From positions 1 to 49,675 of the forward strand of contig CALWLA010000017.1 of NCBI GenBank assembly GCA_944381405.1: a stretch of DNA of 49,675 nt, written 5' to 3'. The position numbers and the translations under genes were made by a program. Below, piece by piece: positions 1,505 through 2,332 of this stretch. The notes beneath the pieces are model-generated. The model saw only the letters and a program-made list of their open reading frames with translations. It was not told the DNA's origin and ran no database searches. Numbering within the stretch: the first letter of the stretch is position 1; every line of letters starts with the position of its first letter. The stretch is from an uncultured Lachnospiraceae bacterium. Its GTDB lineage: Bacteria; Bacillota; Clostridia; Lachnospirales; Lachnospiraceae.

Positions 1505-2332
1505 TTGCGCGAATCTGCTAGTTCAGTCAACCGGCAAATTGCGGCTTCCCGGAATTCGGACCGGCGTCGCTGGCGCAAAATGGGCGGAAAGAATTATAAC
1601 TTTCATGCCATCATCGCGCTGGTGATCATCTGCCTCGCCTGGACTGTAGCTGCCCATATTGTTGACCAGCCCTTTATTTTTCCTTATTTTGAGGACGTGA
1701 TCTCTCAGGTGCTCTATTCCCTGACAGACCTCTATGTCCTGGAAAACCTGGCCATTACCATGCGGCGCGTTCTGACCGGATGCCTGATCGCCTTTGTCAT
1801 CGGCTATCCTTTAGGCATGCTGATGGGCTTTTTCCCGAAGACCCTGCAGACCCTGTCGCCCTTCATCAACTCCCTGCGGCAGGTGCCTATCATGGCCTGG
1901 GTGCCTCTGGCCATCGTCTGGTTCGGGATCGGCGACGGCCCCACGGTATTCCTGATCGCCTTCAGCGGCATCTTTACCATCATCCTCAATACCGTGGCTG
2001 GCGTACAGGACATCAGCCGGGACTTTTATAACGCAGCCCGTTCCATGGGCGCCAGCACCCTGGGCGTTTTAAAGGATGTGGTGCTGCCGGCTTCCATGCC
2101 AGGCGTGCTCACAGGCGTGCGGCTGGCCATCGGCCTCGGATGGATGTCCGTTATATGAGCGGAGTTCATTGCGACAAGTGCCGGTTTCGGTTACATCATG
2201 GTGGAAGCTCAGGCCGATATGAATACAGCTACCGTTATCGCCTACATGGTTATCGCAGGCGTCATCGGTTTCCTGATCGATATCGTTATGTTAATGGTTG
2301 AGCGGGTGCTCTTGAAATGGAGAGAGGCCTGA
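1505..2332 (+). CDS. saoP: NitT/TauT-type ABC transporter permease with in-frame UGA (Sec218), predicted SaoP
   Basis: The start is set at TTG 1505 because AGGAGG (1492-1497) lies 7 nt upstream; an earlier in-frame TTG at 1484 would put the ribosome site inside the gene. The 275-residue product (one Sec counted) has the membrane segments and cytoplasmic EAA loop of SsuC/TauC-type permeases (AARSMGAS...LPASMPGVLTGVRLAIG, around residues 178-210). An in-frame UGA at 2156-2158 falls in GWMSVI-U-AEFIA, where relatives carry a small residue; the frame then runs 57 more codons with normal permease sequence to TGA at 2330. A hairpin follows the UGA at SECIS distance. No ATPase or binding-protein gene adjoins; a terminator follows at once. 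A nonsense-mutated pseudogene is the alternative. Confidence 0.75.
2178..2194 (+). promoter_or_regulatory. Candidate bacterial SECIS hairpin of saoP
   Basis: GTGCCG pairs with CGGT(T)AC, with one bulged T, around the loop GTTT. The loop lies 26-29 nt after the UGA and begins with G followed by U, both features of bacterial SECIS loops. The stem includes one G-U pair. Confidence 0.55.

Follow-up and report, generated by a model that had tools for sequence, protein, structure and literature searches.

A SaoP-Type ABC Transporter Permease Gene with an In-Frame TGA Codon, Very Probably Read as Selenocysteine, in an Uncultured Lachnospiraceae Bacterium

Organization of the saoP Locus

We analyzed a stretch of 49,675 nucleotides from an uncultured Lachnospiraceae bacterium (GCA_944381405.1, contig CALWLA010000017.1), below called the window; the genome to which it belongs comprises 2.0 Mb in 41 contigs and is 99.36% complete. 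The forward strand carries at positions 1505–2332 the gene saoP, which encodes an ABC transporter permease of the NitT/TauT type and is read through one TGA codon. The likely start is TTG 1505, preceded by the sequence AAGGAGG at 1491–1497 (spotted by eye), with TTG 1484 as an alternative start. The in-frame TGA (2156–2158, +) is codon 218 counted from TTG 1505, and 57 sense codons of family sequence separate it from the terminal stop at 2330–2332, so that the coordinates proposed in the first-pass annotation, a UGA at codon 218 and 57 further codons to the natural end, were correct. The hairpin with a GTTT loop, which had been said to start 20 nt past the UGA, was placed at positions 2178–2194 (+); it reads GTGCCG-GTTT-CGGTTAC, with the loop at 2184–2187. 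The terminal stop codon of saoP is also TGA, and a single message would thus use UGA both for selenocysteine (Sec) and as a stop.

The permease scores 386.5 bits with the NCBIfam model NF040733 (curated cut-off 295) and has TGA at the conserved SaoP column that holds Sec or Cys; we regard its membership in SaoP as practically certain. Its similarity to the taurine and sulfonate permeases TauC and SsuC is clear at the level of the family, but the scores with their models, 146.8 and 132.9 bits, are far below the cut-offs of 342 and 347. Earlier doubt whether the reported Sec-containing ABC transport families include this subunit is thereby settled, since SaoP is a named family. Neither the family nor its gene cluster is new: a 2026 review counts SaoP, SaoT, SaoB, SaoC, SaoX, and SaoL among the selenoproteins and, with reference to Haft and Gwadz 2023, presents the Sec-assisted organometallic (SAO) operon with six selenoprotein genes (PMC13188914).

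Divergently adjacent to saoP lies saoT (950–1202, −), a gene for a thioredoxin-like protein with the motif CxUC (NF040730, 107.3 bits, cut-off 65), in which codon 14 is a TGA (1161–1163, −) read as Sec within CAUC. The efflux transporter gene saoE (1–948, −; NF040736, 459.4 bits, cut-off 325) is cut by the contig start. In the relative L018, residues 3–321 of the SaoE frame match the window and residues 325–382 match the start of another contig of the same genome, C20, from which it follows that the junction of the two contigs probably falls inside saoE. Past saoE, contig C20 encodes SaoC (175.7 bits, cut-off 80), SaoB (254.3 bits, cut-off 140), and SaoA (426 bits, cut-off 360), so that the SAO neighbors saoT, saoE, saoA, saoB, and saoC are all above their cut-offs. 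A complete saoL, the gene of the MerB-like lyase, was not found in the operon; saoA is followed by an apparent remnant corresponding to the last ~70 codons (L099:2477–2695, G000:C20, +), which keeps the Cys-TGA motif and matches only about residues 130 or 140 to 210 of the SaoL protein of L032. About 9 kb beyond the remnant, the same contig carries a SaoX gene with one in-frame TGA (G000:C20:11320–12336, L102; 478 bits vs. 300).

The locus is thus like the published SAO system in its model score, its Sec codon, the neighbors saoT and saoE, and the presence of SaoA, SaoB, and SaoC on the adjoining contig. It differs in that saoL is a remnant only and in that SaoB and SaoC, for which the review gives Cys-Sec (PMC13188914), have Cys-Cys in this genome, at the end of the protein in the case of SaoC.

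Sec and Cys Forms of SaoP

A scan of genome contigs yielded 231 SaoP relatives, and the best 80 of the 231 were kept for alignment. In the column of codon 218, the window and these 80 homologues have TGA in 40 cases, TGT or TGC in 30, and codons for Ala, Gly, or Met in 11 (8, 2, and 1, respectively); because the alignment holds only the best 80 and one scan pattern, WMSVICAE, was biased towards Cys forms, these counts are not prevalences. TGA was therefore found in the same column in 39 of the 80 kept homologues, which come from other assemblies. Ala, Gly, and Met occur only in the 11 distant homologues among the kept sequences, with 29–38% identity. The first-pass annotation had named as contrary evidence homologues with Ala, Gly, or Ser and never Cys or Sec; inside the family this is not the case.

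It is very improbable that the UGA is a real stop and that a 217-residue permease is made, with the downstream part surviving for another reason, since the Pfam match spans this part, which consequently belongs to the transporter domain, and the 30 Cys forms all encode it as an unbroken frame.

In the ten close relatives compared (of 16, L017–L032), no further in-frame stops were found downstream of the TGA, and changes are most frequent at third codon positions in all ten; in the comparison with L032, for example, the numbers of changes at codon positions 1, 2, and 3 are 8, 3, and 23. Synonymous changes downstream of the TGA outnumber amino-acid changes in eight of these relatives; L021 and L023 show the reverse, which counts against the Sec reading. 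The part after the TGA is also less constrained than the 160 codons preceding it. Three TGA forms have extra in-frame stops, which lie close to where the match begins in L056 and L085 and within the matched part in L082; the last of these may therefore be broken.

Within the genus, SaoP was detected in four of the 25 genomes searched, including that of the window, with one TGA in each; thus, TGA is present in all three of the other genus members that possess saoP (3 of 24 searched). The distribution of SaoP in the genus is patchy, and several of the remaining genomes are incomplete.

These comparisons bear on the reading of the TGA as an artefact of sequencing or as the mark of a pseudogene in which a Cys codon has recently mutated to a stop. 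A single base separates TGA from TGC or TGT, the relative L082 has its additional stop, and the hairpin energy of the window is not exceptional (see below), all of which would fit such a reading. Against it, the codon recurs in 39 of the 80 homologues, which stem from other assemblies, and in every other genus member found to have saoP, and the frame stays open downstream in the ten relatives compared. As independent genomes share the TGA, we reject this reading, which is refuted as far as comparison can do so and retains a negligible probability.

SECIS-like Hairpin Downstream of the TGA

The region following the codon was evaluated against 500 synonymous variants per sequence, with codon use drawn from the same gene; after duplicates were collapsed, 43 Sec-form sequences were reduced to 32 and 30 Cys-form sequences to 27. 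The mean energy z-score was −3.03 for the Sec forms vs. −0.19 for the Cys forms, with the z-scores not being independent because the sequences are related. At least seven of the eight family pairs form in 29/32 Sec forms vs. 1/27 Cys forms; the pair structure counted here was derived from a Sec-form fold and hence favors the Sec forms, while the energy test is independent of it. The codons at +7 (AGT) and +8 (GCC) are each found in 29 of the 32 Sec forms, as compared with 13 and 10 of the 27 Cys forms, in which the amino acid at +8 varies.

The picture for individual sequences is more varied. In the window, seven of the eight pairs form, a number reached by a fraction of 0.036 of its synonymous variants, and the energy is unremarkable (z = +0.08). 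The window is one of four Sec forms of 32 with z above −1, the others being L021, L024, and L059. Fewer pairs form in L059 (5), L074 (4), and L080 (2); L074 and L080 nevertheless fold well (z = −3.48 and −3.80), and L059 is not outstanding (−0.56). Two of the 27 Cys forms, L047 and L053, reach z = −2. A SECIS-like hairpin shortly after the UGA, constrained at the codon level, is therefore a property of the Sec forms as a group and is weak for the window taken singly, and the case for it rests on the family.

Sec Machinery and Gene Neighborhood

The genome of the window contains tRNA-Sec (60 bits, gathering score 47), selB (356.3 bits, cut-off 242.25), and selD (372.4 bits, cut-off 125), the last of which itself contains a TGA; the gene beside tRNA-Sec was read by eye as selA. 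As a control, the model RF01852 matched 14/14 known genomes, five of them over the cut-off, and only matches over the cut-off enter the following counts. Of the 39 TGA-form genomes, 37 have tRNA-Sec; it was not found over the cut-off in the other two (L028 and L060), whose assemblies may be incomplete. It is present in 25 of 30 genomes with the Cys form as well, so that the Cys form is not simply the result of lacking Sec. The idea that the Sec form tracks the presence of tRNA-Sec is, for the same reason, not supported.

The SAO neighbors accompany both forms of saoP. Among 42 Sec-form and 30 Cys-form loci, matches were obtained for SaoT in 37 and 25, SaoE in 39 and 27, SaoC in 33 and 28, SaoB in 33 and 29, and SaoA in 35 and 29, respectively. 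These counts refer to the best tblastn hit anywhere in the locus (E 1e-4, for SaoA also >40% identity); some of the matches are paralogues, such as the SaoE hits of 22–26% in L080 and L077, three of the 42 Sec-form loci are genus loci with short flanks, and several contigs are cut. The saoL gene, matched in 33/42 Sec-form and 12/30 Cys-form loci, is not universal. At the Sec position of SaoT, a stop codon aligns in 23 of the 37 matches from Sec-form loci and Ser or Thr, as aligned, in 14; in the 25 Cys-form loci, the position is occupied by Cys (14), Thr (7), His (3), or a stop (1).

We consider the insertion of Sec at residue 218 to be as good as certain, and the gene, its family, and Sec insertion taken together to be highly probable. 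Judged from sequence comparison, the saoP gene of the window is very probably a real selenoprotein gene and a typical representative of a known family. Since the SaoP family is in print, what the window contributes is mainly a further example, with the SECIS-like element supported quantitatively; it also draws attention to another ABC locus of this genome that bears Sec codons.

Predicted Structure and Possible Role of Sec

A monomer model built from 31 sequences (mean pLDDT 82.7, pTM 0.73) places Sec, residue 207 in the numbering of the model, in a long predicted helix, 174–212. This helix is preceded by a predicted short helix, 161–169, which by our own reading would hold the EAA region. The closest solved structures are the cyanobacterial nitrate and bicarbonate permeases NrtB and CmpB, which share the fold (TMq 0.68–0.81 over the ten chains listed; best-ranked matches CmpB, 0.80, and NrtB, 0.79) and are also matched by sequence profile, with E-values of 1.3e-47 for NrtB and 9.5e-47 for CmpB. 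They differ from SaoP in having Ala at the place of Sec.

The first-pass interpretation had linked Sec, located just after the EAA loop, to direct handling of metals or organometals in the translocation path. Its first element, Sec, is strongly supported by the exchange of Sec and Cys, the hairpin of the Sec forms, the Sec machinery, and the Sec codon in the adjacent saoT, and the predicted model agrees with a place after the EAA loop. As for its last element, the handling of metals or organometals by the SAO system is a published hypothesis (PMC13188914).

The saoP mRNA is very probably translated through the UGA, with the hairpin just downstream directing the insertion of Sec at residue 218. 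For the transport itself, the following mechanism may be proposed. SaoP would form a homodimer with SaoA as the ATPase; SaoB would hand a thiophilic, perhaps organometallic, substrate to SaoP, and import would be driven by SaoA. Sec, in the helix that follows the EAA loop, could serve as a soft ligand or as the site of a transient adduct while the substrate is transferred. Cleavage of the metal–carbon bond would then be the task of a SaoL-type, MerB-like lyase, the metal would be exported by SaoE, and SaoT would keep thiols and selenols reduced. We put the chances of a soft-metal or organometal substrate of SaoP at about even, and direct contact between Sec and the substrate is somewhat less probable than that.

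It is also possible, if rather unlikely, that Sec is inserted but, instead of contacting the substrate, acts in redox control, for example as part of a selenenyl-sulfide switch that SaoT reduces. The divergently adjacent position of the thioredoxin-like saoT gene with its CxUC motif, and the frequency of its matches in Sec-form and Cys-form loci alike (37/42 and 25/30), speak for a redox role; the predicted location of Sec inside a long helix of the membrane domain speaks against it, as it would make access by a thioredoxin unlikely. Sec within a helix of the membrane domain of a transporter is chemically unusual, and the natural occurrence of one permease with either Sec or Cys offers a direct route to test the role of the selenol in transport.

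A Second Sec-Bearing ABC Locus

The second locus lies on contig C2 and may be the part of the finding that is possibly new. It includes a SaoL-like, MerB-related gene with a Cys-TGA motif (L100:5951–6805, G000:C2, −), which falls short of the model cut-off (110.3 and 109 vs. 140 bits) and in which the next in-frame TGA is probably the true stop. The same locus has a gene for a substrate-binding protein whose motif PNHPUAV contains an in-frame TGA (L100:8483–9592, G000:C2:130485–131591, −), together with an ATPase gene and a permease gene that carries Ala where SaoP has Sec (by eye).

Since the CAMCAID motif seen in the L032 protein falls in a region that the saoL remnant of the operon lacks, the lyase step proposed above would fall to the SaoL-like protein of C2. 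It is conceivable, though on balance doubtful, that in this lineage two loci share the SAO function, with the saoP operon having lost most of its lyase gene and C2 supplying a SaoL-like Cys-Sec protein and a Sec-containing (HPU) binding protein. If true, such a split would add a family of Sec-containing binding proteins to the SAO theme.

At E 1e-10 or better, the sole match of the binding protein was SsuA_fam, with 90.5 bits (cut-off 163.5); neither the three places of the SaoX search nor the one place of the SaoB search included it. At E 1e-60, no close relatives but the protein itself were found in 61 genomes. With only two weak hits of the SaoL-like protein (E 0.15 and 0.50) near more distant binding-protein matches, wider linkage between the two genes is unproven. 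These distant matches number 11 in nine other genomes of 392, and in all 11 of them Cys occupies the Sec column.
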